In this document: piece after piece, positions 1-49,732 of the stretch
Layout of the letters: the number at the start of each line of letters is the position of its first letter
Position numbering within the stretch: position 1 is the first letter of the stretch
DNA from: Acetobacter papayae JCM 25143
GTDB lineage: Bacteria > Pseudomonadota > Alphaproteobacteria > Acetobacterales > Acetobacteraceae
Reading direction: 5' to 3'
Assembly (NCBI RefSeq): GCF_000613285.1
Contig: NZ_BAIN01000016.1
Coordinates: 1 to 49,732, forward strand
DNA: 49,732 nucleotides
Translations under genes and position numbers: made by a program
The notes under the pieces: generated by a model
The model's database searches: none
Seen by the model: only the letters and a program-made list of their open reading frames with translations
Told to the model about the DNA's origin: nothing

Positions 1-1071
1 CTGATCGGGCCGCTGACCAGCGGTGATACGGCGGAAGCCACACCCGCCGCACAGGCAGGGCGGGTGCCGGTTCTGGCCCTGACCAGCGATGTGGCGCAGG
101 CCCGTCCGGGTGTATGGGTCATGGGTATTACGCCCGAAGATCAGGTGCAGCGTCTGGTGGAGCAGGCCCGACAGGAAGGTCGCAAGCGCTTTGCGGCCCT
201 GCTGCCGGATAATCCTCTGGGGCGCGCCATGGGCAGCGGCCTGCAGGTTGCCTGCCGGGATCAGGGGCTGGCGGAGCCTGTCATCAGCTATCATTCCACG
301 GCGCCAGACAGCGTTACGGACGCTCTTAAACAACTGAGCGGCATCAGCACGAATGGCGCATCGCTTCCCGCTGGTGTGGCCGGTCCGGGGCCGGATGCGC
401 AGGCCCAGCCGCTGCCTACGGATCTGGCGGCGGCGCTGGGGCAGGCGGGTAACGAGGCTGCCAGCGCTCCGGCAACCATGCCTGGTGGCAATGCCAGCAC
501 GGGCGTGGCTGGGCTGAGCGCTTCCGGGCAGGGTGTTGCGCCTGCCTCGCTGCCTTTTGATGCCCTGTTGCTGGGCGATACCGGTCTGCCATTAAAAACC
601 GTCATGACCGCGCTGAATGACATGCAGGTTGGCCTGCCCGCAGTGCGGATCATGGGGCCGGGCTTGTGGGCGGCGTTTGCTAGCAAGCTGGGGCCGATCC
701 GTGGTGCGTGGTACGCTGCTCCCAACCCTGCGGCCCGTCAGGGGTTCGTAGCGCGTTTTTCCGCACAGTACCAGCATGCACCCAAGCCGCTGGTTGACCT
801 GACCTATGATGCCGCAGGGGCTATCCGCACACTGGCGAACGAAGGTGCCAAGGACTTTTCGCCTAAATTGCTGACCCGTCCGGCAGGCTTCCAGGGCGTG
901 GATGGGGCGTTTGTCCTGCTGCCCGATGGCCGGGTGCGGCGCGCTCTTGCGGTGTTCGAAGTTATTGGCAGTGGGGCGGATGCGCGGATGATCGCAACCG
1001 CCCCCACCAATGTTGCCCCGCAGGCGGCACCGGCTGCCGGTGCGGTCAAAGCCCCCGCAGGCGGTGCCTGA
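1..1071 (+). CDS. Penicillin-binding protein activator (LpoA-like periplasmic binding fold), 5' end cut off
   Basis: The reading frame is open from the first base of the window, so only the C-terminal part (about 356 residues) is present and the signal peptide or lipobox lies outside. The protein has the fold pattern of type-1 periplasmic binding proteins of the COG3107/LpoA group: an early LIGPLTSGD stretch, VLALTSD, a GVWVMGITPEDQV segment, and VDLTYDAAGAIRTLA near the C-terminus. Family members sit in the periplasm or on the outer membrane and are thought to activate class A penicillin-binding proteins. An Ala/Pro/Gly-rich insert around residues 115-180 and a low-complexity Ala/Pro tail look like linkers. 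It could instead be a branched-chain amino-acid-type receptor, but no transporter genes are visible. A hairpin terminator follows. Confidence 0.72.
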   Translation: MIGPLTSGDTAEATPAAQAGRVPVLALTSDVAQARPGVWVMGITPEDQVQRLVEQARQEGRKRFAALLPDNPLGRAMGSGLQVACRDQGLAEPVISYHSTAPDSVTDALKQLSGISTNGASLPAGVAGPGPDAQAQPLPTDLAAALGQAGNEAASAPATMPGGNASTGVAGLSASGQGVAPASLPFDALLLGDTGLPLKTVMTALNDMQVGLPAVRIMGPGLWAAFASKLGPIRGAWYAAPNPAARQGFVARFSAQYQHAPKPLVDLTYDAAGAIRTLANEGAKDFSPKLLTRPAGFQGVDGAFVLLPDGRVRRALAVFEVIGSGADARMIATAPTNVAPQAAPAAGAVKAPAGGA

Positions 1072-1089
1072 GCTGATACATTCTGGTTG

Positions 1090-1131
1090 GGTCCGGGTAG
1101 CAATATGACTGCCCGGACCATGGCATTTTTA
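1090..1131 (+). terminator. Intrinsic terminator after the LpoA-like gene
   Basis: An 11-bp GC-rich stem (GGTCCGGGTAG pairing with CTGCCCGGACC, one G-U pair) with an 8-base loop is followed shortly by a T-rich stretch (ATGGCATTTTTA). It lies 19 bases past the stop codon. Confidence 0.6.
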
Positions 1132-1254
1132 TTGCCCGGTTTCAGGCCCAGTTAATCTCGGCTTTTATGTCCGCATGATAGGTGTAGCGGAGAGCCGGGG
1201 GCATGGGGTGCCGCTACCCGGTATCCCCTGTGGCGTGTTGCCGCGATAATTTTT

Positions 1255-2894
1255 TCAACTCAAGGCAGAGGCCCGCCGGGTGCGTGCCATGGTCGAAAGG
1301 CTCTGGGCGACACGGCTGACCACATCAGCCCACTGGCGCGGTGTGGTCTGGCGGATGATACGCAGGTTCGGATACCACGGCGTATCGTCACGGCCGTGCA
1401 GCCAGCGCCAGCAGTTATCGTAGCGATCCATCAGCAGCACCGTTTTGCCCAGCCCCCCGGCCAGATGCGCCACGGATGTATCCACGCTCACCACCACGTC
1501 CAATCCCATGATCAGGGCTGCCGTGTCGTCCATACTGTGCAGGGCGTCTGTCGGGTCGTACAGGGACATGCCTTCGGGCGGGTCCATCATCTGTTCGGCA
1601 TAGGGGCCTTTTTGCAGGCTGATGAGCTTAAGCCCCGGCAGGCGGCCCAGCGGGGCAAGGGCGCTTAAAGGGAGCGAGCGCCGCCTGTCCACGATATGCG
1701 CTGCCAGCGTGCGGTTACGTGGTGCTCCGCCCCAGACCAACCCGACCCTGAGCGCTTTGCCCGAAGGCAGAAGCCCTGCCATGGCGCGTGTTTTTTCCTC
1801 ATCTGCCTGCAGGTAAGGCACGGCGGTGCCCCATGGCGTGGAGGTATGCAGGAAAATACGCGGCAGGCTGATAAAGCCGCAATACCAGTCAAAGGCGGGC
1901 AGAGGCGGCGTATCATGCGCATGACATGCACGGTATGGACACCCTGCAGGCGCTGGCAGAGCTGGTGCAGTTCTGGCGGCACCAGCAGGTGAATAATCGC
2001 CCCACGCTGCGCCAGAGACGGGATATAGCGCAGATACATGAGCGTATCGCCCAGCCCTTCTTCATGCACGAGCAGCACTCGCTTGCCATCAAGCCGCTCT
2101 GTGCCTTTCAGGGCGGGGAGTGTGGCGCGGTCAGGCATGGTTGCGTGACCGGGCAGGGCATGCCGCCACTCATGCTCCTGCCAGCCTTTGGCGTAGTCGC
2201 CAGCCTTGAGCAGGGCGACTGAGCGGTTGAAGTGAAAGCGGGCATCATCCGGGTGCAGGGCGAGTGCGCTATCAAAATGGCTGAGGGCTTCTTCCATGCG
2301 GCCCTGACCGCTCAGGATCGTGCCGATATTGACCAGCATTGCCGCGCGCTCAGCTTTGCTGGCGGGCAGGGGGTGCAGACAGTCCAGTGCGGCCTGCATG
2401 TCGCCCTGTTCTGTCAGCGCCATGGCCAGCAGGCTACGCGCCAGTGTAGCGTCCGGGGTGCGGGACAGGGCCTGTTTCAGCGTGCTTATGGCGGCTTCGT
2501 GCTGGCCGGTTTGCACCAGCAGGCTGCCCAGCACGGCATGCACGCGTGTATCATCCGGGGTGCGGCGTAGGAGTGCCTGCCCTGCGGCAAGGGCCTCAGG
2601 CCTGCGATCCTGCGCCATCAGCAACTCGGCCAGATCCTGCAACGGGTGCTGGCTGGTGGGGTGGCGGCTGGCTACGGCGGCCAGAAGGTCGGCAGCCCGT
2701 TCAGGCCTGCCCGCGGCAGCCAGACAGATGGCGTAGAGAATACCCGCCTGTTCCGCACTGGCGTTTTCTGCCGGAGGGCACTGCCCGTATGGTTCCAGCC
2801 GGGGCAGGGCCTGCCAGAACAGTCCGGCTTTTATGTCCGACAGGCAGGCGCGCAGAAATTCGGGGCTGAGGGGGGCAGGGCTGGCGGGTTTCAT
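1255..2894 (-). CDS. TPR-repeat protein with C-terminal glycosyltransferase-9-like domain (one frameshift)
   Basis: About 546 residues after repair of one missing base near 1917. The N-terminal half holds tandem tetratricopeptide repeats (for example ALSHFDSALALHPDDARFHF and AAISTLKQALSRTPD). The C-terminal half resembles the heptosyltransferase/TPR glycosyltransferase fold seen in large bacterial TPR transferases, with LLVHEEGLGDTLMYLRY, VGLVWGG and VVSVDTSVAHLAGGLGK. I infer a role in glycosylation of a surface polymer or protein; the substrate cannot be read from sequence. The start at 2894 (MKPASPAPL) is chosen because the upstream extension is Pro/His-rich and unlike a domain. It has no operon partner here and lies downstream of the carD terminator. 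Confidence 0.72.
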
Positions 2895-2974
2895 GGGGGC
2901 TGGTCCCGGACAATGAGGGCGCGTGACATGCGCCAGAGTATCCGCGCCAGTGCGGGCGGAAAACCGGTGCGGCA

Positions 2975-3011
2975 TAAAAAACCCGGCATCCCTGTGGGGC
3001 TGCCGGGTTTT
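2975..3011 (-). terminator. Intrinsic terminator of carD
   Basis: A perfect AAAACCCGGCA / TGCCGGGTTTT inverted repeat with a 13-base loop. On the minus strand it ends in six Ts, which suits termination of the minus-strand carD transcript before the next gene. Confidence 0.75.
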
Positions 3012-3697: not shown

Positions 3698-4572
3698 TTA
3701 TGACTGCACGCCGTTTACCGTTTGCAGTGCCGGGGCTGTTGCGTCTCCTGTGGGTTGCAGCACGTCAATTTCGATCGTGCGGGCAATGGTGGCCATTGGC
3801 AGGGCATGCAGCGTATTGGCAAAAGGCTCCTGAAGGTCGCTGGCGCTCTTGTCCAGAACCAGAAACAGGCAGCCCACAAGGCTTGAGCCCAGCGGCGTGA
3901 TCCATTCCAGTGTCTGAACCATGGAGAGTGGCAGCACGATGCAGAAGATGTTCACCAATACCCTTGGCAGCACCGAAAACTGCATGGGCAGCGGTGTGTT
4001 GCGGATACGCTCCAGCCCGCCCTGTGCATTGGCCAGATCAGACAGGATACGGTCGATCTGCCGTGCACCGCACCATCGATGTTTTTCTTGCGGACTTCCT
4101 CAGCCACTCCCAGCCCGATCTGGTAGAGAATGGCGTTAGGCTGGTTGCGGTAGCCGACAATGGCTTCACGCATGGAGGCGGGCAGCAGGCGGTTGATGTC
4201 CTCGCTGGCATCCAGCTTGCCCAACGCCATGCGCAGGGCGTGCGGGTAGGCGGCTATGGCGTACATCAGGTCGTGCCGGTCGCCCAGCAGGGTGCCGGCC
4301 TGTCGGCCAAAGGAACGGCAGTTGTTGGTGATGCTCCCCCACAGGGTGCGGCCTTCCCACCAGCGGGCATAGGCGCTGGTGCTGCGAAATCCCATGAACA
4401 GGGCCAGAGCGGAACCGATCAGCGGGACAGGCAGGCTCGGCTGTTCCATCCATTCCTGATGGAAGACCTGAAACAGCACCACCACCACGAAATCCCAGGC
4501 TGCCATGAGCAGGAGAACGGTGCGAACCTCGCGGGATATAATGCGTAATCCCATGCGCGGGTCAACGATCAT
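3698..4572 (-). CDS. Bestrophin-like (UPF0187) membrane channel protein (one frameshift)
   Basis: About 291 residues after adding one base near 4063. The start at 4572 (MIVDPRMG) follows an AAGGAGA site 9 bases upstream. The hallmark FMGFRSTSAYARWWEGR-LWG segment of bestrophin/YneE proteins follows the first two membrane helices (about 18-38 and 46-64). After the frameshift the rest of the family pattern continues: LVNIFCIVLP, then LEWITPLGSSLVGCLFLVLD. Bacterial members form pentameric ion channels in the inner membrane; ion selectivity differs between members and cannot be assigned here. No neighbour suggests a specific role. Confidence 0.82.
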
Positions 4573-4730
4573 CCAGACTGTCTCCTTTCTTGTCGGGGCT
4601 GTATTGCCCGTCCGTGCTTTAACATGACACAATGAGAGTGGTTTCCCGATATGGCAGCTTTATGTTTGTGCTGCCATCCGGGCTATGTTGTTGAAAATAT
4701 GCGGTGAAATGCTGAAGGAAGATTAAGCTC

Positions 4731-5593
4731 ATGCAAGCCAGTGCCGGGTTGACCCTGCGGGAAGAGCATCGCTGTCATGGGGGCAGCGTACAGTTTTACG
4801 AACATCAGTCCGAAGTGCTGGGACTGCCTGCACGGTTTGGCGTGTTTCTGCCCCCCGCAGCGCTTGAAGGTAAGCGCGTACCGATTCTGTATGTGCTGGC
4901 AGGCCTGACCTGCACGGATGAAACCTTCCTGATCAAGTCGGCCGCGCTGGCCGAGGCCGCACGGCTTGGGCTGGCCATTGTCGCCCCTGATACCTCGCCC
5001 AGAGGGGCGGGGGTGCCGGGCGAAGATACGGACTGGGATATGGGCACGGGGGCCGGCTTCTATCTGGATGCCACACAGGAGCCGTGGAGCCGCCATTACC
5101 GCATGGACAGCTATATCAGCCGCGAACTGCCCGCGCTGGTTGAGGCGGCATTGCCGCTGGATGGCACGCGGCGTGGCATTACAGGCCATTCTATGGGTGG
5201 GCATGGTGCCCTTGTGCATGCGCTGCGCAACCCTGAATTTTGGAAATCGGTTTCGGCCTTTGCCCCATCGTGCATCCGTCCGCCGTGCCTTGGGGTGAAA
5301 AGGCGTTTACCACCTATCTGGGCACAGACCGCACGGCATGGCGTGCTTATGACGCCGTGTGCATGCTCGAAGACGGCCTGAGCCACCCCACCACCATTCT
5401 GGTTGATCAGGGGGATGCCGATCAGTTCCTTGAGCGCGAACTTCAGCCTTGGCATCTGGAAAAGGCGGCTCTTGCCGTCGGGCAGAAGCTGACCCTGCGC
5501 CGCCATGCCGTGTATGATCATTCCTACTGGTTCGTGCAGAGCTTCGCGTGCGAGCACCTGCGCCACCATGCGGCTATTCTGGGCGCGCTGTAA
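4731..5593 (+). CDS. fghA: S-formylglutathione hydrolase (one frameshift)
   Basis: About 287 residues after adding one C in the CCCC run at 5263-5266. The enzyme hydrolyses S-formylglutathione to formate and glutathione in cytosolic formaldehyde detoxification. Visible family features are ILYVLAGLTCTDETF near residue 60, the nucleophile motif GHSMGGHGA (Ser of G-x-S-x-G), the acid region DQGDADQFL, and the histidine region YDHSYWFVQSF near the end. Length matches the esterase D/FrmB family. A GGAAG site precedes the ATG. The usual partner, glutathione-dependent formaldehyde dehydrogenase, is not in the window. Confidence 0.9.
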
Positions 5594-6204: not shown

Positions 6205-7175
6205 CAGGGCAGACGGCGGAGCCACAGGCGTACGATAAGCTGGGTTGTCAGCCAGCAGATCAGGGCTGCCGCAACAGGCAGGCACCCCAGCCCGATAAGC
6301 AGGTCGGAGGGCACGGCATTAAGAATAGAGGCTTCATCCATCAGGCCGGTCTGGCTGGCAGTGGCCTGCGCCATGTCCGCATCAGCGGTAAAAGGGGCCG
6401 TGATCTGGAGCAGCGCAAAGAGTGGCAGGCAGGCCAGCACCGTGCCGCTCAGCCCGCCACCAAAGGCAAGTGAGGCCGTTCTGCGGGCAAAGCGTCCGGC
6501 AATATAACCATCCGATGCACCAAGCCCGTGCAGGGTGGTGATGGTATCGCGGCGCGAGGCCAGTCCGGCACGGGTGGTCAGGCCCGTAATCAGGGTGGCG
6601 ACACCGCAGACACTCAGCAACGCCAGTCCCGCGCAGGCTAGCAGGCTGTTGGCCAGAGCATGCAGGCGCGTGCTCCACAGACTGTTACGCTCGACAATGA
6701 CACCCGGAGCCAGAGCCGATAGATCCTGCTCCAGTGTGGCTGGTGGGACGGTGCCATCGGGCAGGTCAACACGCAGGACGGCGGGCAGGGGCATGGCCGC
6801 GCTGCCTGCGGGGGCCTGTCCGTTGTTCAGGCCGCTGCCCAACCACGGCTGGAGCAGAGTGTCCAGTCCTGCGCGGAAAGCCGGTGCACGGTGCTGCCCG
6901 CAGGTAGGCTGACCAGTGCGGCCAGCACGGCATCAGCGGTTTGGTCCCGTCGCTCTGGCCCTGCCGGGCTGGCTGGTCAGGCTGTGGCACCTGAATAATG
7001 ACAAGCTGCGCAGCCCCCCCGGCCCAGCGGGCGGATAATGCCCGTGCGCCGCACGCGCCAGCCAGTGTCAGGGCGGCCAGAAACCCCACCATGCTACCAG
7101 CGCAAACAGCCCGCGATCGGGCATGGCTTCAGCCAGAGACAGGCCATCGCGCCTGCGGGTGGAACGGCGGCTCAT
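6204..7175 (-). CDS. ftsX: Cell division protein FtsX (three frameshifts)
   Basis: About 324 residues after restoring one base near 7093, in the CCC at 6946-6948, and near 6865. FtsX is the inner-membrane partner of FtsE; it couples the ATPase to periplasmic murein hydrolase activation at the septum. Seen are an N-terminal basic segment and a helix (GFLAALTLAGACGARAL), an extracytoplasmic stretch, then the C-terminal membrane helices (LLACAGLALLSVCGVATLIT and a GGGLSGTVLACLPLFALL region) with the FtsX-type GASDGYIAGRFARRTA loop. The ATG at 7175 overlaps the ftsE stop (ATGA). Assignment rests on this topology and on position after ftsE, since the family is poorly conserved. Confidence 0.82.
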
Positions 7176-7926: not shown

Positions 7927-8328
7927 TTACATGTTCCGTGCGGCAAGGGCCGTAAGGGTGGAGGCGGCAGCGGCTACGGCCATAAGGCCAATCCCGTCAT
8001 AGATCAGGCTGGTGGCGCTGAGCATGTGCCCGCCCAGTACAATTTCGTGCGGAATGGCGGCCGCGGCGTTGCTGATGGCGTCACGCGCCTGCGGGTCGGC
8101 TGCGGCGGTGGAGCGTGTCAGTGCGCCGGTCAGGGTTGGCACGGCGGCCCACACCACGCCTGCAATCAGCAGGAACGGGGCCAGCAGTTCTGCCACCTGC
8201 TGGATGAAACCCGCCACAAAATGGCAGATAACCCAAAGGGCCGTGCAGATGAGGTGCAGGATTGTCGAGCCGCCTTCATGCAGGGCGGGAGCGGGAGGCT
8301 GCGGTGCAAGGGGAGTGCGCTGATCCAT
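7927..8328 (-). CDS. Unknown small membrane protein upstream of ftsE
   Basis: 133 residues that I do not recognise. A Pro/Ala-rich N-terminus is followed by hydrophobic segments near residues 23-42 (ILHLICTALWVICHFVAGFI) and 45-66, an Ala-rich loop with several charged residues, and a third hydrophobic stretch near 101-128. This suggests three membrane helices. It lies 74 bases upstream of ftsE on the same strand and may share its transcript, so a link to division or envelope is possible but is only positional. It is intact and codon use looks normal for the region. Confidence 0.6.
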   Translation of the reverse strand: MDQRTPLAPQPPAPALHEGGSTILHLICTALWVICHFVAGFIQQVAELLAPFLLIAGVVWAAVPTLTGALTRSTAAADPQARDAISNAAAAIPHEIVLGGHMLSATSLIYDGIGLMAVAAAASTLTALAARNM

Positions 8329-8578
8329 GAACCGTTTTTCCTTTGGGGGGTGCGATTGTGGAGCCTGTTATACAGGGGGGTGGGCGGTTGTGTCACGTCA
8401 TGGAAGGCGTGCCGGGTGTGGCTGGGGGGCGTAACAGGGGCTGTTCACGCATTCGAGAGCAGACGGCGCTTTGTTCCGGCGTTTAAGGTAGGAGCATGGG
8501 GTTAGGTCAGGAACGCGGCCCGGCCTTGCGGGGTTTTGCGGGTATTTTGGGTTTTGTAAGGGAGCGTTACGGTCGTTC

Positions 8579-13042: not shown

Positions 13043-13180
13043 GGAGTGGAGAATTTACATCACAGGGTTGAAGGCGAGCGAGGCTGAAACTGCGCGGGGT
13101 TGTGCGGATAACGTAAGGAACAAAGCGCAGGCACGGGCTGGTCGTGCGGTGTGTGCAGGGCGGTGTTCAAGCGCTTACCC

Positions 13181-13208
13181 CTTGTGTTGGCGGAGTAAAG
13201 CCCTATTT
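13181..13208 (+). promoter_or_regulatory. Heat-shock sigma factor (RpoH) type promoter of hslVU
   Basis: CTTG at 13181-13184 and CCTATTT at 13202-13208 are separated by 17 bases. This matches the alphaproteobacterial RpoH consensus CTTG-N17/18-CYTATNT at every defined base. hslVU is a classical heat-shock operon. The expected transcription start (about 13214) is only a few bases before the hslV ATG at 13219. Confidence 0.65.
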
Positions 13209-13218
13209 CTTTGAGATC

Positions 13219-28220: not shown

Positions 28221-28265
28221 ATTGCAGGGTTGCGCAAAAAACCGCTCAGGAGCCTGTCTGTCCTT

Positions 28266-34956: not shown

Positions 34957-37583
34957 ATGGCGTTAACGGGTCTGGCAGCAGCGCTGCTGGTTATTGCACT
35001 GTTGCTGGTTGTCGTGAGCGCGGTGCAGCCTCTGGCCCGCAAGCTGGAGCTGTCCGAAACCGTTCTGCTCGCCATTGTCGGGATCATTATCGGTTCTGTG
35101 GCAGATTTTGCGCTGCGTTCCTCCCATGCCTCGGCCCTGAGTGGCATTGCCGAAACCCTGCTTGATTTTCCCATTAACAGCGAAGCGTTTCTGCTGATCT
35201 TCCTGCCCGTTCTGGTGTTTCAGGGGGCGTTGGCCATTGACGTGCGGCGTCTTGCGCATGAAGCGGCCACGGTTCTGCTGCTGGCCGTGGTGGCGGTGGT
35301 GCTGTCCACCGCATGATCGGTTTTGCCCTGCACCCGTTTGCGCAGATGCCGCTTGTGGTGTGTCTGCTGCTTGGTTCCATCGTGGCTACGACAGACCCTT
35401 CAGCCGTGGCAGGGATCTTCCGTGATATCGGGGCCGCCACGCGCCTGACCCGGCTGGTGGAGGGCGAGGCGCTGCTGAACGATGCAGCGGCTATTTCGAT
35501 CTTTTCCATCCTGCTGCCCTCGGTCACGCTGCATAAGGCCATCCACCCCGGTGAGGCGGTGATCTCGTTCTTCATCTCCTTTGGCGGTGCGGTCATTGTC
35601 GGGATGGTACTGGGGCGGCTGACACTGGCCATGATGTCGGCTATCGGCAGTTCCGCCGCCGAAATTACGCTTACGGTGGCGCTGCCTTACGTAGCCTATA
35701 TCGTTTCGGACGAATTCCTGTCCGTATCCGGTGTGGTGGCGACAGCTGCCGCCGGGCTGACGGTTTCGGTTTACGGGCCTTCGACCATCCGGCCACAGAC
35801 ATGGCTATTCCTTAACCAGCTCTGGCAACAGCTTGTGTTCTGGGCGGGGTCGTTGGTGTTCGTGCTGGCCTCCATGCTGGTGCCGCATCTGCTGGTGGGC
35901 ATGAACCGCTGGGACTGGGTGCTGATCCTTATTGCCAGTGTGGCGGGCATGGCCGCGCGTGCCGCTGTGGTGTTTGGTATGTTGCCGCTTCTGGCCTGGA
36001 GCCGCCTGTCGCCCCCCGTTCCCACACCTTTCAAGGTTACCATGGTGTGGGGCGGGCTGCGCGGCGCCATTACGCTGGCACTGGCGCTGGCCGTGACGGA
36101 AAACGACCACGTAGCCACACCTACGGCTCATTTTATAGGGATTATCGCCACTGGCTTCGTGCTGATTACGCTGCTGGTCAACGGCACCACGCTGCGCTCG
36201 CTCGTGCTGTTTCTCAAGCTCGACCAGCTTTCTCCCATTGATGAGGCCATGCGCCATCAGGTTCTGGGGATCGGGCTTGGCAATGTGCAGAGACGGGCTA
36301 AAGCGCTGGGCGATGAGCTTGGCTTTTCCGCCGATGCCACTCGCTCCGTGTTGGAACAGGTGGCCCGCCGCTCGGAAGAGGAGCAGGCGGTTAACGAGTT
36401 CGACAACGCCCTGTCTGATACGCAGCGCATCAATCTGGCGCTGATTACCATCGCCAGTCAGGAGCGCTCCTTGCTGCTCGATCTGTTCCGCATGAAAGGG
36501 CTTTCGCGCCGGGTGATGGAAAACCTGCTGCGCTCGGCCGAGGCAGCGGTTGATGGTGCGCGGTTGGAAGGGCGTCTGGGTTACGTGCGGGCTATCCGCC
36601 GCAGGCTTAGCCCCACGCTGCGTTTCAAAATGGCGCAGGCGATCCATAACTATCTCAAACTCGACCGGCCGCTGATGCTGAGCATGGCCGAACGGTTTGA
36701 AATGCTCATGGTTGCGCATTTTGTTTCCATCTCGCTCACTCGCTTCATGCGTGTGCGGCTGGAGCCCACGCTGGGCAGCCGTATTGGCGAGATCGTGGCC
36801 GAGGTGCTGTCGCGCCAGCGCAAGTTGCTGGATGAGGCGCTGGAAACCATGCGCCTGCATTACCATGGCTATGCCGAAGCGCTGGAAAACCGCATTTTCC
36901 GCCAGATTGTCCTACGCCTTGAGGGCGAGGAATATGATGCCCTCTTGTCGGAATCTCTGGTGAGCGAAGAACTCAGCCGGGAACTGATCAAGGAAGTCGA
37001 ACGCCGTCGCCACCGGCTGGACAAGCGCCTGAGCTTCGACCTGCGTAGCGGGATTGAGGAGCGCATCAAAAACGCCACCATCTTCAAGGGGCTGTCAGGG
37101 GCAGAGCTGCATGATCTGGCAACCACCACCTCCCTGCGCTTTGTTACCCCGCAGGAAGTGATCTGCCGTAAGGGCCGCAAGGTGAAATATGTCTATTTCA
37201 TCAGTGCCGGTCTGGCGGAAGCGCATGTGGTGGGTGAAGACATGCATTTTGGTGCGGGCGATCTGATTGGCGCACAGGAGGCGCTCAAGCGCTGGCGCTG
37301 TGCAGGCACCGTCAGGGCCGTGCAGTTCGGCCACCTTATGGCAATCCGTGCCTCACGCTTTCGGCGGCTGGTGGAGGATTATCCGGTGGTGCTGGAGAAT
37401 ATTCAGGCCAACCTGCGCAAGCGCGAAACGGGGGAGCGCCCCCTCAGCCTGCTGCCACGCCGCAAGCCGGGCCTGAATGGTACGCCGTCTGAGCCGAAGG
37501 AAGACCCCGCGCCATTGGCTATCGAGGGTAACCCTACACCGCCCCTGCTGGACGCACCGGCAACCGGAGGCGAGGCCCTGTAA
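34957..37583 (+). CDS. CPA1-type Na+/H+ antiporter with long cytoplasmic tail and cNMP-binding-like domain (one frameshift)
   Basis: About 875 residues after adding one C at 35312. The N-terminal 400 residues form the transporter: FLPVLVFQGALAIDVRRL, TTDPSAVAGIFRDIGA, the ion-site LVEGEALLNDAAAISIFS, and VWGGLRGAITLALALAV. A helical cytosolic stretch (about 410-660) and a cyclic-nucleotide-binding-fold domain (about 665-790, IFKGLSGAELHDLA to LVEDYPVVLENI) follow, then a Pro-rich tail. It exchanges Na+ or K+ for protons in the inner membrane, plausibly for acid or salt tolerance. The phosphate-binding cassette lacks its conserved Glu (it reads GDLIGAQEALK). The ATG at 34957 is chosen for its GGGGGAG site; a GTG at 34930 is an alternative. 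Confidence 0.85.
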
Positions 37584-37627: not shown

Positions 37628-38154
37628 TTATGACTGTGTGGCGCGCAGGGCGAGGCCAAACTGCACCCAGCTTACGCCACTGACAATCAGTTCCACGGCC
37701 ACGAACGTGCCGATCAGCCACAGGCCCGACCAGGGCAGGGTCAGATACAGGCACAGCCCCACAACAAAGCTGATAAGCCCGCTGAACAGGATCACGCCCC
37801 AGCCCGGCAGCGCACGGTGCCGGAGGGCGATGATAGCGCGGCTGATGCCCACCACCATAAAGCAGGCCGCCGCAAACAGGGTTATGGCCGCAGAGCCGGA
37901 AACGGGCTCGGCAATCAGGATACCCCCGGCGATAACGTAAAGCGCACCGCAGAGCAGAGCCAGCAGAAAGCCGCCCCAGTCCCGCACGGCCACAGCGTGC
38001 GCGCCTTGCATGATCCCTGCGAAAATCAGCAGGGCGCCAATAAAGATAGTGCTGGCCAGCGTTACGGCGACAGCTCCACACAGGAGACAAAGCCCAGAGC
38101 GATCAGCAGGGCGCCTATACCTACGAACAGGCCCCATTTGCGTGCAAACGGCAT
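37628..38154 (-). CDS. HdeD family (DUF308) acid-resistance-type membrane protein (one frameshift)
   Basis: About 175 residues after adding one base near 38075. Six closely spaced membrane helices are visible, for example WGLFVGIGALLIALGFVSC, LLIFAGIMQGAHAV, FLLALLCGALYVIAGG, ITLFAAACFMVVGI and VILFSGLISFVVGLCLYL, with the DUF308 pattern of short loops. In E. coli HdeD aids acid resistance at high cell density; a similar role would suit an acid-producing host, but this is inference. AAGGAAA precedes the ATG. It is divergent from rpsD. Confidence 0.8.
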
Positions 38155-38515
38155 GAAATATTTTCCTTGAATACGGTCGGTGGCCTGATCTTGGCCGGAA
38201 TGATGGCAGCGGCATGCGGTATCCGGCCATGCCCCTTTGGGCATAATATGGTGTTGGGGTAAGGAGAAAGGGAAAAATGCACAGCCCTGTTCCTGCATGC
38301 CTCTCCATCGGGAGTGTGTCGGTTTCTTGACAGAACGCGGCAGTTTCCGTAAAGGCTGCGACCATTGCCGGGAATGAGGACGAAACGGCCAGCACGCTAC
38401 GGCTGGTAATGCGTTTCGCGCCCGCTCCAGTCCGCGGTGGACGGAGACTACCGGTGTAATGACGGGACAGGCAACCGCAAGGCCGCCGCCCGCCTGTTGA
38501 GAGTAAGAGCGCACT
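38155..38515. other. 361-base gap between the HdeD-like gene and rpsD
   Basis: Holds an ATGCCC-cttt-GGGCAT hairpin at 38229-38244 next to CATAATA, a 17-codon frame with AAGGAG (38277-38330), a TTGACA promoter-like element at 38327 and a GC-rich leader with a hairpin at 38425-38446. It is therefore likely to be the control and leader region of rpsD and of the HdeD-like gene. No recognised RNA family. Confidence 0.45.
38327..38355 (+). promoter_or_regulatory. Candidate promoter of rpsD
   Basis: TTGACA at 38327-38332, a 17-base spacer, then TAAAGG at 38350-38355. The -35 is perfect and the -10 weak. It would give a leader of about 155 bases before the rpsD ATG. Confidence 0.4.
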
Positions 38516-39253: not shown

Positions 39254-40800
39254 ATGTCTGATCCCGCCATGGCCGAACTGGGCAGGGAAATTGCCCGTCG
39301 GCGCACCTTTGCCATTATCTCCCATCCTGACGCCGGTAAAACGACGCTGACCGAGCGTATCCTGCGTGCAGGTGGGGCCATTCAGCTTGCGGGTAATGTG
39401 CGCGCCAAGGGCGAGCGCCGCCGGACACGGTCTGACTGGATGGCAATCGAGCGGGATCGCGGCATTTCGGTTGTCAGCTCGGTCATGACGTTCGATTACG
39501 GCGGCTGCGTGTTCAATCTGCTCGATACGCCCGGACACGAAGACTTCTCGGAAGATACCTACCGCACCCTGACAGCCGTGGATTCCGCCGTGATGGTGAT
39601 CGACGCCGCCAAGGGGATCGAGGATCGGACACGCAAGCTGTTCGAAATCTGCCGCCTGCGCGATATTCCCATTGTCACATTCATCAACAAGATGGACCGT
39701 GAAGCGCAGGATCCCTTTGCGCTGCTTGATGAAATTGCCTCGTCACTGGCGCTCGATACATCGCCCGCGACATGGCCGGTTGGCCGTGCGGCAAATTTCG
39801 CAGGCACGTATGATCTGCTGAACGATACATTGCACACCCCAACGCCTCTGCCGCAGGACGACCCGCGCCTGACACAACTGGAAGAGGAACTGGAACTGGC
39901 CCGTGCCGCCCTGCCGCCTTTCGAGCGCGAATCCTTTGATGCGGGGCACCTTACCCCTGTGTTCTTTGGGAGTGCGATCAAGGAAATAGGGGTCACGGAC
40001 CTGCTGGATGCGCTGGTGGCCTTTGGGCCTTCCCCTCGTGCGCAGGCAGCCGAAAGCCGTACCGTTACGGCGGATGAAACCGGCATGACGGCGTTGGTGT
40101 TCAAAATTCAGGCGAATATGGACCCCAACCACCGCGACCGTATTGCCTTTGCGCGTGTCTGCTCGGGCCGTCTGACGCGGGGCATGAAGCTCAAGCATAC
40201 CCGTACGGGCAAGAGCTTTGCTGTGCATACGCCGCAGTTCTTTTTCGCCCAGGACCGGCATCTGGCAGAAGAAGCTTTTGCGGGCGATGTGGTGGGTATT
40301 CCCAACCACGGCACGCTGCGCATTGGCGATACGCTGACCGAGGGTGAAGACATCCAGTTTACCGGCGTGCCGCATTTTGCGCCTGAAATCCTGCGTCGCG
40401 TTCGCTTGATGACGCAATGAAGGCCAAGAAGCTCAAGCAGGCTCTGGTGCAGCTTGCGGAAGAAGGCGTGGTACAGCTTTTCCGACCGCAGGATGGCGCG
40501 CCGCCGATTGTGGGGGTGGTGGGTACCCTCCAGCTTGACGTGCTACAGGCGCGGCTGAAGGCGGAATACGGCGTTGGTATTGGCTTTGACTCAACGCCTT
40601 ATTCGCTCGCGCGCTGGATTACCGGCCCGCGCGATAAAATCGAAGCCTTTGCCGGGGCCAACCGTGCTGCCATGGCGGATGATCTGGATGACGATCCGGT
40701 GTTTCTTGCCACGTCTTCGTTCATGATGCGGCGTACGGAAGAACAGAACCCCGATATCCGCTTTCATGACATCAAGCAGATTGGTATTGGCGTGGGCTAA
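39254..40800 (+). CDS. prfC: Peptide chain release factor 3 (one frameshift)
   Basis: About 515 residues after adding one base at 40405. RF3 is a GTPase that recycles RF1 and RF2 after peptide release. G1 is SHPDAGKTTLTE, the switch I region is RTRSDWMAIERDRGISVVSS, G3 is DTPGHEDFSEDTYR and G4 is NKMDRE; after the frameshift FRPQDGAPPIVGVVGTLQLDVLQ identifies RF3 instead of EF-G. The start at 39254 is the first ATG with family-like sequence (DPAMAELGREIARRRTFAIIS). Confidence 0.95.
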
Positions 40801-40893: not shown

Positions 40894-41924
40894 TCAGACC
40901 AGCGCTTGCTTGAGAGCAGCCGTCAGTTCCTTGGTGCCAGCCTTGCCACCCAGATCACGCGTGCGCACGGAACCTTTGGTGATGACATTGGCAATGGCAC
41001 TGTCGATCCGGTCTGCCAGATCGCCGCGGCGACATGGCGCAGCATCATCACGGCGGCCAGCAGCAGGGCCAGCGGGTTGGCAACGCCCTTGCCTGCGATA
41101 TCGGGGGCAGAGCCGTGCACGGCTTCAAAGACAGCAGCCTTTTCACCGATATTCGCACCCGGTGCCATACCCAGACCGCCGACCAGACCCGCCGTGAGGT
41201 CGGACAGGATATCGCCGAACAGGTTGGTGGTGACGATCACGTCAAACTGCCACGGGTTGATGACAAGCTGCATGGCGCAGGCATCGACAATCCGTTCGTT
41301 GAACTCGATGCGGCCCTTGTATTCTTCGGCCACCTTGCGGCCTTCTTCAAGGAACAGCCCGGTCAGCAGCTTGAGGATGTTTGCCTTGTGCACGATGGTA
41401 ACCGTCTTGCGGTTGTTCTGCACGGCGTATTCAAAAGCATATTTGACGATACGGCGGCATTCCGCGCGGGAGGTAAAGCCCGAGCTGAGGGCGATGCCCT
41501 TGGGGTCTTCACCCACCGGAATGTAGTGTTCCATCGCCGCGTAGTACCCTTCAAGGTTCTCGCGGAAGAGCACAAGATCGATATCTTCGAACTTGCCGCC
41601 GGGCACGATGGTCTTGGTGGGGCGCAGGTTGGCAAATAGCCCGAATTCCTGACGCAGCGTCACGTTGATGGACTTGAAACCACCCCCGACCGGCGTGGTC
41701 AGCGGGCCTTTCAGGGCGAGGCCGGTGCGGCGGATGCTTTCGATTGTCTGCTTGGGCAGAGGATCGTTTACGGCGTCAACGCCAGCCATGCCGGCCAGTT
41801 GGGGATCCCATGCGAATGGGGCGTTAACCGCATCCAGAATCTCGATTACCGATTCAACAATTTCAGGGCCAATTCCATCGCCAGCGATAAGAGTGGCGGG
41901 AATGGTCTTGCTGTCTGCTGTCAT
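40894..41924 (-). CDS. NAD-dependent isocitrate dehydrogenase (one frameshift)
   Basis: About 343 residues after adding one base at 41024. Member of the isocitrate/isopropylmalate dehydrogenase family; it opens TIPATLIAGDGIGPEIVESV and shows LKGPLTTPVGGGFKSINV, LVLFRENLEGYYAAMEHYI, NLFGDILSDLTAGLVGGLG and VHGSAPDIAGKGVANP. The Asp after the Pro in the last motif and the short length point to NAD, not NADP. The GGGFKSINVTLRQEF stretch, instead of the isopropylmalate pattern LRKELGLYANLRP, favours isocitrate; still, I cannot exclude a homoisocitrate-like or other substrate. TCA-cycle enzyme. Confidence 0.82.
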
Positions 41925-42020: not shown

Positions 42021-43806
42021 TCACGGGCAGTTGAGAGGCGCACAGGCGTTTTCCAGCCAGTTTTGCGCGTCCTGAGGCAGAAATGGTGCGATCTGCCCCA
42101 GAATTTGCGCATGATAGGCATTCAGTCGTGACGTATCTTCCGCACCCAGCAGGCAGGGTCGATCAGGCGCGTGTCAAAGGGCGCCAGCGTCAGTGTTTCA
42201 AATTCCAAAAAGACACGTTCGGTCTGTACCCGTTGTGCGGGGTGTACCAGAACCAGTGTTTCAAGACGGATTCCATACGCACCCGGCAGGTAAAAGCCCG
42301 GCTCGTTCGACAGAACCATGCCCGCTTCCAGCGCAATGGCGGAAGGCGCTTGGCAATCCGCGCAGGCCCTTCATGCACGGACAGGAAAGAGCCGACTCCA
42401 TGCCCAGTGCCGTGGTCGTATTCCAGCCCGTCCTGCCACAGAGCGTAGCGGGCCAGCGCATCCAGCGCCGTGCCGGTGGTGCCAGCGGGAAAACGCGCAT
42501 GGCCCAGTGTCAGGTTGCCTTTGAGCACACGGGTAAACGTGGCGCGCAGGGCATCGGGCGGTGTGCCCGGCCCGGTCCAGATTGTGCGGGTAATGTCGGT
42601 AGTGCCATCAGGATACTGGCCGCCGCTATCGCACAGATAGACTTCGTTTTCGCCCAGCCTGCGATCACTCTGCGTGGTTACCCGGTAGTGGATAATGGCT
42701 CCGTTAGGGCCGGAGCCGGAAATGGTGGGAAAAGATGCGCCCCGGTAAAGCGCATGCTCAGCCCGGAAGGCCTCCAGTCGGTCGGCGGCTTCAAGCTCCG
42801 TGCAGCCCTGTCCCTGCGTGTCGAGCCAGTGCAAGAAGCGGCATACGGCCACGCCGTCGCGCAGATGGGCCGCGCGCATACCAGCCTGCTCGGTAGCGTT
42901 CTTGCGGGCTTTTGGCAGCAGGCACGGGTCTGGCGTGGGGCACACGGTGGCCCCGGCATTTTCAAGAACCTGCGTGAACCAGACTGCATTAGAGGCCGGG
43001 TCCACGCCGATGCGCGCACCGCTCATGCGGCTCAGTACTGCCTGCATGTGTTCTGGCTCATGCAGGCGGATATCCGGCCCGAGCCATGTTTTTACATCTG
43101 CGGGTATTTTGGCTTGAGAGACAAACAGATCGACCGTGGCATCGGCATGGACCATGGCAAAGGCCAGCACGACCGGGGTACAGGGAATATCCGCACCACG
43201 GATGTTGAGCAGCCACGCAATGGAGGCGCTGTCGCTCAGGATGGCGGCGCTCTGCCCGAGCGTTTTCAGTTCAGTTGCAATGTTGGCCCGCTTGGTGGCG
43301 GATGCCTCGCCCGCATAGTCTAGCGGGTGGATAAAGGCTGGGGCCGTGGGCAGGGTGGGGCGGTCGGCCCACAGGCTGTCGATAAGGTTGTGGTCGGTTG
43401 GTACCAGCGTGATGTCCGGTATGGACAGGAACGGCCTGAGGGCCGACTGGCTCATCACCCGTGGGTCATAACCGATCCGGCTGCCCGGCGTTGCGGTGGT
43501 GGCCAGCCATGTGGCAGGCGGCGTGTTCAGGCTGTGCAGGCATGTCCAGAGTGCTGAATCAACCTCCTGCGCCATCTGGGTTGTGTAGCGGCCATCGGAA
43601 AAAACAGCGGCTTTGGTGGCCAGCACCACCGCGCTTCCCGCACTGCCGGTAAAGCCGGTCAGCCAGGCCAGACGCTCGGCGCAGGCCGGGGTGTATTCCC
43701 CCAGATATTCATCGCTATGGGGGACCAGAAGCCCATCCAGTCCGTTTTCTGTCAGCGCTGCGCGCAGGGCGGCAAGGCGGTGGGGAAAAGGATGGGCAGG
43801 AGCCAT
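42021..43806 (-). CDS. pepP: Xaa-Pro aminopeptidase P (M24 family) (two frameshifts)
   Basis: About 595 residues after adding bases at 42345 and 42152. It removes N-terminal residues before proline in the cytosol. Two creatinase-like N-terminal domains precede the pita-bread catalytic domain, with metal ligands in LCDSGGQYPDGTTDITRTIW (two Asp), the GHGVGSFLSVHEGP His region, NEPGFYLPGAYGIRLE (Glu) and VFLEFETLTLAPFD (Glu). The long form of about 600 residues matches the eukaryotic/alphaproteobacterial aminopeptidase P subgroup. It follows prmA by two bases on the same strand. Confidence 0.92.
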
Positions 43807-43808
43807 GC

Positions 43809-44735: not shown

Positions 44736-46982
44736 TAGAGTTTCTCGATAAAGGAGGAAAGAAGTCGTTTGGTGCCAACGCCTTCGAACACGACCTCAAC
44801 ATGGTGTCGGTCAACGGCAATGACGGTGCCTTCCCCAAAGCGGGGGTGGCGCACCTGCTGGCCCAGCGAGAAGGCGGGGGCCGTGGCTGCAGGCCGGGGG
44901 GCGGGTGTTCTGCGTGGCGAGGACAGGCCGGGTGTGGCGTTGAGCGGCCCGGCGGCAAAAAGGGATTCGGTGCTGCGCAGGCCGTGCTGGCGCGTGCCGC
45001 CCTCGTTCTTGCGGGTAATGTGCTCATCGGGCAGTTCATCCAGAAAGCGGCTGGGCATGGAAGGCTGCCAGTTCGCGTAGATCCGGCGGCTGCCTGCGTG
45101 GTAGATAAGGGCCAGCTTGCGCGCGCGCGTAATGCCGACATAGGCAAGGCGGCGTTCTTCTTCCAGCCCTTTCAGCCCGCCTTCATCCAGCGTGCGCTGC
45201 GAGGGAAACACGCCTTCCTCCCAGCCGGGCAGGAACACGATATCGAATTCCAGCCTTTGGCGCCGTGCAGGGTCATGATGGACAGGCGCGCTTCCTGCGC
45301 GTTTTCATCCTGTTCCATGACAAGGGCTACATGTTCGAGAAAATCCCCCAGTGTCGGGAAATCGGCTAGTGCGCGCACCAGTTCCTTGAGGTTTTCCAGG
45401 CGGCCGGGTGCCTCGGGCGAGCGGTCCTGCCGCCACATGTCCAGATAGCCGCTTTCTTCCAGCAGGTGTTCGGTGGCGACAACATGGCCTTCACGCGCAA
45501 GCAGCTCGCGCGTGGCTTCCAGCGTGGCCAGCAGGGTGCTGACCTGCTCTCCCAGCTTGCCTTTGAGCGTGCCGTTTTCGGTTAGAATACGTGCGGCGGC
45601 GGTCAGGGGTTGGTTGTGCTCGCGTGCGCTGGCATGCAGTTTCTGCAACGCCGCAGGGCCTACACCCCGTTTGGGCGTGTTGACGATTCTCTCAAACGCC
45701 AGATCATCCGCAGGCTGATTGAGCACGCGCAGATAGGCGAGGGTATCGCGTATTTCGGCCCGCTCATAAAAACGCACACCGCCAACAATACGGTAGGGCA
45801 GGCCGGTCTGTACCAGACGTTCTTCAAAAGCGCGGGTCTGGAAACCGGCGCGCACCAGAATGGCCATTTCCGCCAGTGAGTGCCCCTGCCTGCGCAGGGA
45901 TTCGGCGCGTTCGCATACGCTCCGGGCCTCGGCATCCGAATCCCATACGCCGATGACACGCACCTTCTCGCCTTCGGAATCCTCACGGCCAGAGCGCAGG
46001 GTCTTGCCCAAGCGTTCGCATTATGGGCAATCAGCCCGGCGGCGGTTCCCAGAATATGTCGGGTGGAGCGGTAGTTGCGCTCCAGCCTGACTACCTGCGC
46101 GCCGGGAAAATCCTTTTCAAACCGCAGGATGTTTTCAACCTCGGCCCCGCGCCATGAGTAGATCGACTGGTCGTCATCTCCCACGCAGCAGATATTGGCC
46201 GAACCGTCAGGCTGCTTGGCCAGCAGGCGCAGCCACAGATACTGGACGGTGTTGGTATCTTGGTATTCGTCCACCAGAATATAGCGGAACAGGCGGTGAT
46301 ACTGGGCCAGAATATCAGGGTGGGTGCGCAGGATTTCCGTTACATGCAGCATCAGATCGCCAAAATCGCAGGCGTTGAGCTGTATCAGGCGCTGTTGATA
46401 GGTCGTGTAAATGGCGCGGGCATGGCCGTTGGCAAAATCTGTGTCTTCCGCCGGGGTTACGCGCGCGGGTGTCAGGCCCCGGTCCTTCCAGCGCTGGATT
46501 ACGCCCAGTAGCCCCGGTGCCGGCCAGCGTTTGGTATCGATCCGCCATGGCTCCATGACCTGCTTGAGCAGGCGCAACTGGTCATCCGTGTCCAGAATGG
46601 TGAAGCTGGATGTCAGGCCCGCCGTTTCCGCGTGGCGGCGCAGCATGCGTGCGCACAGGGCGTGGAAGGTGCCCAGCCACAGCCCTTCCGCCGGGCTGCC
46701 CAGCAGGGTGCCCACGCGCTCGCGCATTTCCCGCGCGGCCTTGTTGGTAAAGGTTACCGCCAGAATCTGCCACGGCTTTGCCCGGCCTGTCAGCAGGATA
46801 TGGGCGAAGCGGGTTGTCAGGACACGGGTTTTGCCCGTGCCAGCCCCGGCCAGCACCAGCAGCGGGCCATCCGTTGTTTCAATGGCTGCGCGCTGCTCGG
46901 GGTTGAGCCGTGCAAGATAGGACTCGCCCTCAGAGGGCAGGGACGCAAAAAGCGGTGAGGAAGGGGGTTCGGATGTCGTCAC
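44735..46982 (-). CDS. uvrD: UvrD/PcrA-family ATP-dependent DNA helicase (two frameshifts)
   Basis: About 749 residues after adding bases at 46014 and 45254. Superfamily 1A 3'-to-5' helicase for nucleotide-excision and mismatch repair. Seen are the Q-motif region [20 protein letters not shown], Walker [14 protein letters not shown], motif Ia [16 protein letters not shown], motif [27 protein letters not shown] (III), [11 protein letters not shown] (IV), and after the frameshifts MTLHGAKG (V) and [10 protein letters not shown] (VI). A glycine/proline linker and a Tudor-like end ([17 protein letters not shown]) close the protein. Confidence 0.94.
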
Positions 46983-47031: not shown

Positions 47032-47796
47032 ATGGATAACGGGCCGCCGGATGAACAGGCTGAAAGACGGCGGAGTGGCAGGCTTACGGGGCAGGGGCGG
47101 AGCGGGAGCGTTTTTGACAGCACTGGCCCACAGGGGCACAGGCAGCGCATGCGCGAACGCGTACTGCGGCATGGTCCCGCCGGTCTGGCTGACTACGAAA
47201 TTATTGAAATGCTGCTGTTTTCAGGTGTGCCACGGCGCGACACCAAGCCACTGGCCAAAGCGCTTATAAACCAGTTTGGCTCGTTATCCGCTGTGCTGGG
47301 GGCTCCACCGGAAGCTTTGCGGGCAGCCGGCGCGCCTGAGCGGAGTGCCGGGGTGTTCGGCTGTGTTGCGCAGCTTGCGGCTACAACGCCGCGTGCGGCC
47401 GAAGCCGAGCGGCTGATGCTCGATAGCTGGGGCAGTATTTTTTTATACGCCAATTCCTGTCTGGCACTCAGTCCGCCGGGGCAGGTTCGGGCCCTGTTTC
47501 TGGATAGCCATAACAACCTTCTGGCCGATGAAGCTTTGCCGGGGCAGCCGTTTCAGGATGCTGCGGAGGCTGTGGCCACCCTTATGCGCCGGGCCGTGGC
47601 GCTGCATGCCTGCGCGGTGCTGACGGTGCATCTCGTGCGTGACGATACCCTGCTCGATCAGGCACTGGCGCAGGCCAGACCGCTGGCGGTTGCCATAGGA
47701 CAGGCGGCTCCCCGGCTGGCTTTAAGTGCGCATGGGCATCTGGCAGTCGGGCGCGGGCAGTGGCTGAGCTTCAGCTACGACGGGGATGAAGCGTGA
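47032..47796 (+). CDS. RadC paralogue 1 with degenerate JAMM domain
   Basis: 254 residues, intact. Residues about 35-110 are the standard RadC N-terminal domain (GHRQRMRERVLRHGPAGLAD, YEIIEMLLFSGVPRRDTKPLAK). The C-terminal half is shaped like the RadC JAB/MPN domain (RALFLDSHNNLLADE), but the zinc site is lost: instead of H-x-H-P-S-G-x-P-x-P-S-x-x-D it reads AVLTVHLVRDDTLLDQ, and the upstream Glu is not seen. It is therefore predicted to be metal-free and inactive. Its TGA overlaps the GTG of the next gene (GTGA), which codes for a RadC with an intact site. A GGAGCAGG site precedes the ATG. Confidence 0.85.
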   Translation: MDNGPPDEQAERRRSGRLTGQGRSGSVFDSTGPQGHRQRMRERVLRHGPAGLADYEIIEMLLFSGVPRRDTKPLAKALINQFGSLSAVLGAPPEALRAAGAPERSAGVFGCVAQLAATTPRAAEAERLMLDSWGSIFLYANSCLALSPPGQVRALFLDSHNNLLADEALPGQPFQDAAEAVATLMRRAVALHACAVLTVHLVRDDTLLDQALAQARPLAVAIGQAAPRLALSAHGHLAVGRGQWLSFSYDGDEA

Positions 47797-48540
47797 ACCG
47801 GCGTAAATCGGCCGATCCTGCACGGCGAAACCCCTCAGGCGAACTGGATGATGCCGCGTTCTTCCGTTTCGGGCACGGAGGGCCGCAGGGGACGGAAATT
47901 TTCCCGCCAAGAGAGCCGCTGCTGGCAGTTGGCGCGGATGAAGTGGATCTGCTCGCACGCCTTGTTAGCCTCGCAGTGCCCCGGCTTGCTGGCCCCGAAG
48001 CCGTGGCCCAGCGGCTGCTGGCCGCACATGGCTCACTGGCAGGCGTGTTCGCGGCGGCGGGTAGTGCGGGGGAGGCGTGGCAGCAATGGCAGATGCGCTC
48101 AGGGTCATGCTGCTGGTTGTGCATGAGGCGCGCCGCAGGGTGCAGGAGGCCTCCTTGCGCGCCCAGCGGCTGTTAACCAGCGGGCCGCAGCTTCATGCCT
48201 ATCTGCACACGGTCATGGCGCATGAGCGTGTGGAGCAGATTCGCGTGCTGTATGTGGATAAGGAGCACTATCTGCTCGAAGATGTTCTAATGGGGCAGGG
48301 CACGGTGATCATGCGCCGGTTTACCCGCGCGAGGTCGTGCGGCGCGGGCTGGAGCTGGAGGCTGCAGGACTGATTCTTGTGCACAACCACCCCAGCGGCA
48401 ACCCGGCTCCGTCCGATTCCGATATTATCATGACGGGCCGTGTGATCGCCGCCGCCGCCGTATTCGACATGGCTGTCATTGACCATGTGATTGTTGGCGG
48501 CGGGCGGATATTCAGCCTCAAGGCGGAGGGGTTGCTGTAG
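47793..48540 (+). CDS. radC: RadC paralogue 2 with intact JAMM motif (two frameshifts)
   Basis: About 249 residues after adding one base in the GGGGG run at 48068-48072 and one at 48308. GTG start overlaps the stop of paralogue 1. The C-terminal domain keeps the JAMM metalloprotein motif LILVHNHPSGNPAPSDSDI, preceded by VEQIRVLYVDKEHYLLEDV with the expected Glu and followed by VFDMAVIDHVIVGGGRIFSLKAEGLL. The N-terminal half has only a weak, diverged helix-hairpin-helix pattern (ADEVDLLARLVSLAVPR). RadC itself has no settled function despite its name. Confidence 0.87.
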
Positions 48541-48543
48541 CGC

Positions 48544-49716
48544 TCAGCTATCCTGCTCGGCCAGATCGGGAGCAGCGCAGCGTGTGGCCAGAGACCCAAG
48601 CGCCGCACGGATTCCGAATTCACCGGGCAGGCTACCGAACGGAAAGAGCAGGTTCACATGGCCCATCTTGCGGCCGGGTAGGGCCTGTTCCTTACCGTAC
48701 AGATGGGGGATATGGCCCGGTGTCGCCACGATATCAGGCCACAGAGCCATGTCTTCCGGCCCGACGAGGTTTTTCATCACCGCATCGGAATGGCGCACGG
48801 CCGGGGGTAGGGGCAGGCCCGCCACAGCGCGGATATGCAGGTCAAACTGGTCCTGCGGGCAGGCATCCATCGTCCAGTGGCCCGAATTATGCGGGCGGGG
48901 CGCGATTTCATTGACCAGCAATGTGCCAGAGCGTGAGAGAAACATCTCCACACCCATGATCCCGACTAGGTCGAGGGCTTGGGCGATATTTGTCGCCAGA
49001 GTCTGGGCATCCTGAGCGATGGCATCCATTACCGGGGCCGGAGCCAGCGTCAGGTCCAGAATACCCTGCCAGTGCTTGTTCTGCACCGTATCGAAACAGC
49101 GGATGGTGCCATCCGTGCCGCGTGCGACCATTACGCTGAGTTCGCTGGCGAAATCCACCATGCCTTCGGCCACCAGCGGGTGCGGGGCCAGCGTATCGAA
49201 GGCGTTGTCCAGTTCCGCCGCGTCATGCACGCGAATCTGGCCCTTGCCGTCATAGCCATTACGGGTGGTTTTGAGAATGAGCGGCAGGCCGAGGCTTTTA
49301 GCCGCGTCATGCAGGTCTGCCCGGCTGAGCACGGCATGCCACGGGGCGAGGGGAATACCCGCCTCGGACAGGAAGGTTTTTTCTGCCAGCCGATCCTGAC
49401 TGATACGCAGGATATGTCCCGAGGGACGCACCGGGCAATGGCGGGAGAGATGGTCCAGCGCATCTGCACTGATGTTTTCGAACTCGAAAGTGACAACATC
49501 CACCGCGCGGGCGAAGGCCTCCAGTGCCGCAGGGTCATCATAGGCGCCGAGGGTTATGGCGTCGGCCACCTGAGCCGCGGGGCCGCTGGCATCCTGTGTC
49601 AGAATATGGGTGCGGTAGCCTAGTTGGGCTGCGGCAATGGCCGACATGCGGCCAAGCTGCCCACCGCCGACAATACCAATGACTGCGTTGGGGGGCAGGG
49701 CGGCTGTGTCGTTCAT
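48544..49716 (-). CDS. purK: N5-carboxyaminoimidazole ribonucleotide synthase
   Basis: 390 residues, intact. ATP-grasp enzyme that carboxylates AIR with bicarbonate in purine synthesis. N-terminal GIVGGGQLGRMSAIAAAQLG, then EFENISADAL, RLAEKTFLSEAGIPLAPW, the ATP-grasp KTTRNGYDGKGQ loop, SELSVMVARG, and the ligand region VNEIAPRPHNSGHWTMDAC. The ATG overlaps the stop of an upstream gene (ATGA), usually purE. It converges on the radC pair with a 3-base gap. Confidence 0.95.
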   Translation of the reverse strand: MNDTAALPPNAVIGIVGGGQLGRMSAIAAAQLGYRTHILTQDASGPAAQVADAITLGAYDDPAALEAFARAVDVVTFEFENISADALDHLSRHCPVRPSGHILRISQDRLAEKTFLSEAGIPLAPWHAVLSRADLHDAAKSLGLPLILKTTRNGYDGKGQIRVHDAAELDNAFDTLAPHPLVAEGMVDFASELSVMVARGTDGTIRCFDTVQNKHWQGILDLTLAPAPVMDAIAQDAQTLATNIAQALDLVGIMGVEMFLSRSGTLLVNEIAPRPHNSGHWTMDACPQDQFDLHIRAVAGLPLPPAVRHSDAVMKNLVGPEDMALWPDIVATPGHIPHLYGKEQALPGRKMGHVNLLFPFGSLPGEFGIRAALGSLATRCAAPDLAEQDS

Positions 49717-49732
49717 GGCAGTTCGGTCATGG
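49713..49732 (-). CDS. 3' end of the gene upstream of purK (purE expected)
   Basis: Only the last codons are in the window: the minus strand ends ...ATG ACC GAA CTG CCA TGA, and the TGA overlaps the purK ATG. Identity cannot be read from five residues; purE is the usual neighbour. Confidence 0.3.

Follow-up and report, generated by a model that had tools for sequence, protein, structure and literature searches.

When 20 of the 37 genes that can be compared in a stretch of bacterial DNA have broken reading frames, the question is whether genes have been lost from the cell or bases have been lost from the sequence. The stretch considered here (the window) is an entire contig, C162, of 49,732 bases. 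Its parent assembly comprises 3.04 Mb in 177 contigs, some as short as 579–2751 bases, and has a listed completeness of 87%, whereas most of the 48 other Acetobacter genomes compared are at 99–100%. The breaks are almost certainly a sequencing artefact of the draft assembly and not biology.

Frame Breaks in the Window

The nearest named loci of the antiporter gene in the window belong to Acetobacter suratthaniensis (97% identity) and A. peroxydans (95%). The genome of A. peroxydans (G002) is used as the main reference and is collinear with the window at about 84–89% DNA identity, with three short interruptions, while the alignment of A. suratthaniensis to the window spans 22 kb. When the proteins of the G002 open reading frames (ORFs) are aligned to the window DNA by a frameshift-aware dynamic program, 41 ORFs align, and the raw calls are 31 single-base losses, two single-base insertions, one two-base insertion, and five stops. 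Four losses were set aside, two of them (34713 and 34859) in an ORF of 82 residues between divergent genes and the other two (38395 and 38484) in an ORF of 110 residues beside rpsD. Also set aside were the three insertion calls (3681, 38233, and 38318), each of which has one flank that matches at 12 of 21 residues or fewer; the call at 38233, for all its poor flank, is repeated with A. suratthaniensis as reference. The small G002 ORFs with frame changes at window positions 34680–34911 and 38236–38550 are probably not genes; if they are, four losses and one insertion call are to be added.

After this filtering there remain 27 single-base losses in 20 genes (Table 1), every one of them called against an open G002 frame. 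An earlier note on this DNA had listed 26 single-base losses in 19 genes, and had held that each break is mended by one added base and that none requires a deletion. All 26 coincide with a called loss, 25 of them at a distance of 6 bases or less and one at 22 bases, and all 26 are single-base losses relative to G002, with insertions called only at the three poorly flanked sites. At 25 of the 26 sites the loss is found again with one or more of the four other references, so that it is called also against the frame of another relative. The remaining site, 6945, lies in a poorly conserved stretch and is called with G002 only, though three references cover it. The loss at 1916 is repeated by one of three references, and the additional loss at about 8333, in an ORF of 173 residues, is called with G002 alone.

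Table 1. Broken genes of the window, with approximate positions of the single-base losses
Gene	Window coordinates	Strand	Losses	Remarks
TPR-repeat protein gene	1273..2984	-	1 (~1916)	
Bestrophin-like protein gene	3701..4632	-	1 (~4059)	
S-formylglutathione hydrolase gene	4731..5590	+	1 (~5262)	
FtsX-like permease gene	6207..7175	-	3 (~7094, 6945, 6868)	Weak FtsX match; 6945 with one reference only
173-residue ORF, no family assigned	7930..8414	-	1 (~8333)	Absent from the earlier list; one reference only
hslV	13120..13811	+	1 (~13660)	
SufE-like gene	15127..15566	+	1 (~15397)	Below SufE cut-off score
Molybdopterin-binding subunit, aldehyde/xanthine dehydrogenase-type enzyme	15678..18023	-	3 (~16703, 16497, 16099)	NCBIfam below cut-offs, Pfam domains above
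Cytochrome c subunit gene	18499..19841	-	1 (~19661)	
pheT	22229..24684	+	1 (~23192)	Only copy found in assembly
pstS	24712..25805	+	1 (~25276)	
TonB-dependent siderophore receptor gene	28245..30487	+	1 (~28788)	
fumC	33175..34643	-	1 (~34385)	
Na+/H+ antiporter gene	34930..37574	+	1 (~35314)	Below cut-off score
HdeD-like membrane protein gene	37634..38299	-	1 (~38073)	Below cut-off score
prfC	39254..40797	+	1 (~40406)	
Isocitrate/isopropylmalate dehydrogenase family gene	40897..41924	-	1 (~41030)	Below cut-off scores
M24 aminopeptidase gene	42024..43806	-	2 (~42348, 42154)	
uvrD/pcrA-type helicase gene	44738..46982	-	2 (~46019, 45252)	Below cut-off scores
radC-family gene	47760..48537	+	2 (~48090, 48305)	

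The four other references by themselves give 20 further calls, ten losses and ten insertions, which were left uncounted. The majority are at the ends of ORFs or where the match is poor, and all of them are more than 25 bases away from any G002 call. One of these insertions, at 25983, has both flanks above 60%, but the ORF is 67% identical and there is a loss 35 bases away. When instead the best reference is chosen for each gene, the result is 27 losses, no well-flanked insertion, and one two-base loss.

The 37 genes that remain when four doubtful ORFs of the 41 are left out carry 0.60 losses per kb of aligned coding DNA. Of these genes 17 are unbroken, compared with 19.2 expected under Poisson scatter, and the positions of the losses are uniform along the window (Kolmogorov–Smirnov p = 0.87).

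Relatives and Other Contigs

The raw pipeline gives 0.06–0.16 frame changes per kb when applied to the same region in five relatives, compared with 0.73 in the window. When calls are filtered by their flanks, the window has 0.58 losses per kb, and eight relatives of 99–100% completeness have 0–0.08; one of these, G006, also has two single-base insertions and one two-base insertion. The alignment to related genomes and the counting of insertions and deletions that the earlier note had proposed give losses of one sign in the window and open frames in the relatives.

Two relatives of lower completeness (91–92%), G010 and G005 (loci L089–L094), have 0.21 and 0.33 losses per kb. In G010 (contig C232) there are eight single-base losses, one two-base loss, and no well-flanked insertion in 37.5 kb, and in G005 (contig C127) there are 15 losses, two two-base losses, and five well-flanked insertions in 45 kb. 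The lost base can be placed for ten of the 15 losses in G005, six being in G/C runs, and for four of the eight in G010, one being in a G/C run. A cause in common with the assembly of the window is not shown by these sequences, because G005 has five well-flanked insertions and because few losses can be placed, with only six and one of them in G/C runs.

A first blind sample of 20 stretches elsewhere in the assembly had genes that match the reference in only three, and matching stretches were then located by search. The count for other contigs comes from 14 of the 31 stretches searched, namely those that hold genes matching the fetched reference. In these 66 genes and 76.6 kb there are 35 well-flanked single-base losses and no well-flanked single-base insertion, together with two two-base losses, two well-flanked two-base insertions, and four stops; calls with weak flanks (five losses, four insertions, and six stops) were set aside. 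From this, and from the uniform positions in the window, follows that single-base loss is spread through the assembly and is not local to the window.

Gene Decay and Programmed Frameshifting

Consider now the possibility that the breaks are real mutations, either as pseudogenes of a decaying genome or as the work of a hypermutator with −1 slips in short G/C runs. The consistent sign and context of the losses are what a mutational process would give. Such a process would, however, have broken the only pheT and the only prfC found. The pheT gene, which is indispensable, is split at the break, and no other copy was found in the assembly. It is one uninterrupted frame in 44 of the 48 other genomes of the genus. 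The exceptions are G040 and G056, where it is in two pieces on two contigs with one piece starting at a contig start, G010, where it is in three pieces on one contig, and G016, where it is matched as two pieces inside one open frame. A search of the assembly found no second full-length copy of prfC and, for the helicase gene, no second long match above 38% identity.

The third position accounts for 76.3% of the differences in the 20 broken genes and 75.1% in the 17 intact ones, amino acids have changed at 8.0% in both groups alike, and the codon-position counts in the 37 genes reveal no decay downstream of the first break in broken genes. As judged from these counts, the broken genes are under the same purifying selection as the intact ones. 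Because the substitution pattern of the broken genes equals that of the intact ones, and because no decay follows the first break, the breaks show no sign of age. Pseudogenisation was rejected on the codon-position counts and the split pheT. As regards the hypermutator, a defect in DNA repair would hit long runs first, but the long runs are spared here (see below). We therefore regard real mutations, in either form, as very improbable.

Programmed ribosomal frameshifting, by which the frames would be rescued during translation, has precedent in a few bacterial genes. Here it would have to act at 27 sites, spread over 20 genes that are for the most part unrelated, and at every site the frame of at least one relative is open; the probability of this explanation is practically negligible.

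The earlier attribution to consensus sequencing error is thus borne out by the open frames in relatives, by an indispensable gene that is split in the only copy found, by undiminished purifying selection, and by the one-sided loss in other contigs.

Sequence Context of the Lost Bases

The gap can be placed by alignment for 56 of the 62 losses, 26 of 27 in the window and 30 of 35 in the other contigs. As a control, 1494 random deletions were simulated, of which 1398 could be placed. The lost base is G or C in 52 of the 56 placed losses, and 45 of the 56 are in a G/C run, compared with 442 of the 1398 simulated deletions. For the window alone, where nearly all losses had been described as lying in short G/C runs, 21 of the 26 placed losses (27 examined) are in G/C runs of two, three, or five, again against 442 of 1398 (Fisher p = 5e-7).

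Among the 45 losses in G/C runs, 43 are in runs of two to three. Expressed per 1000 runs, the losses number 1.44 for length two, 6.13 for three, 1.11 for four, and 3.94 for five, the last two values resting on one event each, and none has occurred in the 81 runs of six to eight present. For runs of four or more, two losses are found where 7.5 are expected at the rate of three-base runs, which is a moderate difference (Poisson p = 0.02, Fisher p = 0.06).

With the runs of two to three taken on the strand where they consist of G, the base after the run is C in 35 of 43 cases (553 of 1029 in the simulation) and the base before it is A in 21 of 43 (254 of 1029), and the two occur together in 19 of 43 (144 of 1029, p = 3e-6). 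This A-GG(G)-C context was found post hoc on the same 43 events, with eight positions inspected and without a held-out set.

Source of the Errors

The dependence on run length bears directly on the sequencing platform. Residual consensus error of unpolished long reads, from nanopore or PacBio, would share with the present data the dominance of single-base losses, and the indel errors in a nanopore assembly of Pseudomonas are, in the available part of that report, mostly false deletions that fall in runs two to eight bases long (PMC12007338). In the same part of the report, runs of four to five are the ones most frequently followed by a deletion, whereas the losses here are nearly confined to runs of two to three. 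Loss that rises with run length and peaks at four to five or more is not what is found, although the difference between runs of three and runs of four or more is moderate (p between 0.02 and 0.06). Furthermore, 177 contigs, some of them tiny, are not expected from long-read assembly of a 3-Mb genome. The long-read example of the earlier note is therefore not sustained: longer runs do not bring steadily more losses (43 of the 45 come from runs of two to three, none from the 81 runs of six to eight), some contigs are of 579–2751 bases, and we consider this source unlikely. The errors that fragment genes in long-read assemblies (Kastor, PMC12007338) resemble the present ones, to the extent that the available text describes them, in that false deletions fragment genes and are detected by comparison with relatives, and differ in that the deletions peak after runs of four to five.

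Roche 454 pyrosequencing has a flow-based chemistry with homopolymer indels and gives fragmented assemblies, all of which would agree with the data. Its errors, however, become more frequent in longer runs and strike A/T runs as well, whereas here 52 of the 56 placed lost bases are G or C and the runs of six to eight have lost none. Error of the 454 type is accordingly another improbable source.

The explanation that we find best overall, and judge to be probably right, is that base-calling errors have become fixed in the consensus, with Ion Torrent PGM as the most likely source. In this mechanism some short G/C runs would be called too short on one strand of the PGM data, and such a call would enter the consensus where coverage is thin or strand-biased. 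Whatever the platform, a short run of G or C is left one base too short; most of these runs are of two to three bases and, read on the G strand, most stand before C. The loss occurs about once per 1.7–2.2 kb of coding DNA in the parts examined, and the cell's own genes are almost certainly intact.

The published errors of the PGM agree with this in part. The high-frequency indels of the platform occur about once per 1000–2000 bases, and the strand-asymmetric subset of them consists chiefly of C and G deletions, with 82% in runs of two to three (PMC3623719). In the whole class only 29% are in homopolymers, and insertions outnumber deletions in nine of the 15 datasets of Table 2 of that paper (PMC3623719). 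The strand-asymmetric subset amounts to 7.4% of testable indel sites overall (PMC3623719). The losses here thus resemble the subset in the bases lost and in the run lengths. They differ from the published case in that sites there were called from reads and the whole class is often rich in insertions, whereas only the consensus is at hand here and well-flanked single insertions are absent from the filtered counts.

As regards rate, the losses number 0.46 per kb in the other contigs (35 in 76.6 kb) and 0.60 in the window, compared with one per 1–2 kb for the whole published class. Since the asymmetric subset makes up 7.4% of testable sites, the losses here would be more frequent than that subset except in a bad run. 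For the PGM to be the source, one has to suppose both a bad run and filtering in the course of assembly. The two well-flanked two-base insertions and the two two-base losses on other contigs count against the explanation.

In human mitochondrial DNA, false deletions of the PGM have been described at GG; in the part of the report available, no sequence pattern was discerned, every site kept the base in some of its reads, and at that coverage the final calls came out correct (PMC4315160). The likeness to the present case is in the loss at GG dinucleotides and in the minority of such sites affected. The differences, within what that part of the report covers, are that it has neither a pattern nor a wrong final call, whereas here the run has A before it and C after it more often than in the simulation, and the loss has reached the consensus. 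It is conceivable, though doubtful, that the A-GG(G)-C context is a motif for PGM false deletions, for which that part of the report discerned none (PMC4315160).

The PGM type of error fits the context better than unpolished long reads do. For the PGM itself as source, with the platform read from the error pattern, our confidence is modest but on the favourable side; it is held down because the published rate covers a wider class of errors than the published matching context.

Consequences

A rate of about half a loss per kb is enough to make 20 of the 37 compared genes in the window look broken, and users of the assembly would be misled about pseudogene counts, gene-loss claims, metabolic models, and completeness. 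The affected genes are not to be counted as lost, and as biology the finding is ordinary. Raised break rates are found also in at least two further Acetobacter assemblies, G005 and G010.

Other Features of the Window

A block at about 26100–31100, with a PepSY-TM protein and the TonB-dependent siderophore receptor, is common to A. peroxydans and A. suratthaniensis and is unaligned in the fetched syntenic regions of G003, G006, G014, and G017. Between two aligned blocks, at 28118–28203, the window has about 85 bases and G002 about 980.

Beside hslV, at 12536–13042 on the minus strand, there is an intact gene for a GNAT-type acetyltransferase (Pfam Acetyltransf_3). The corresponding site in G002 is about 460 bases shorter and holds a remnant of 48 residues, and G058 holds a copy that is 76% identical. 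This comparison of sequences suggests that G002 has genuinely lost the gene.
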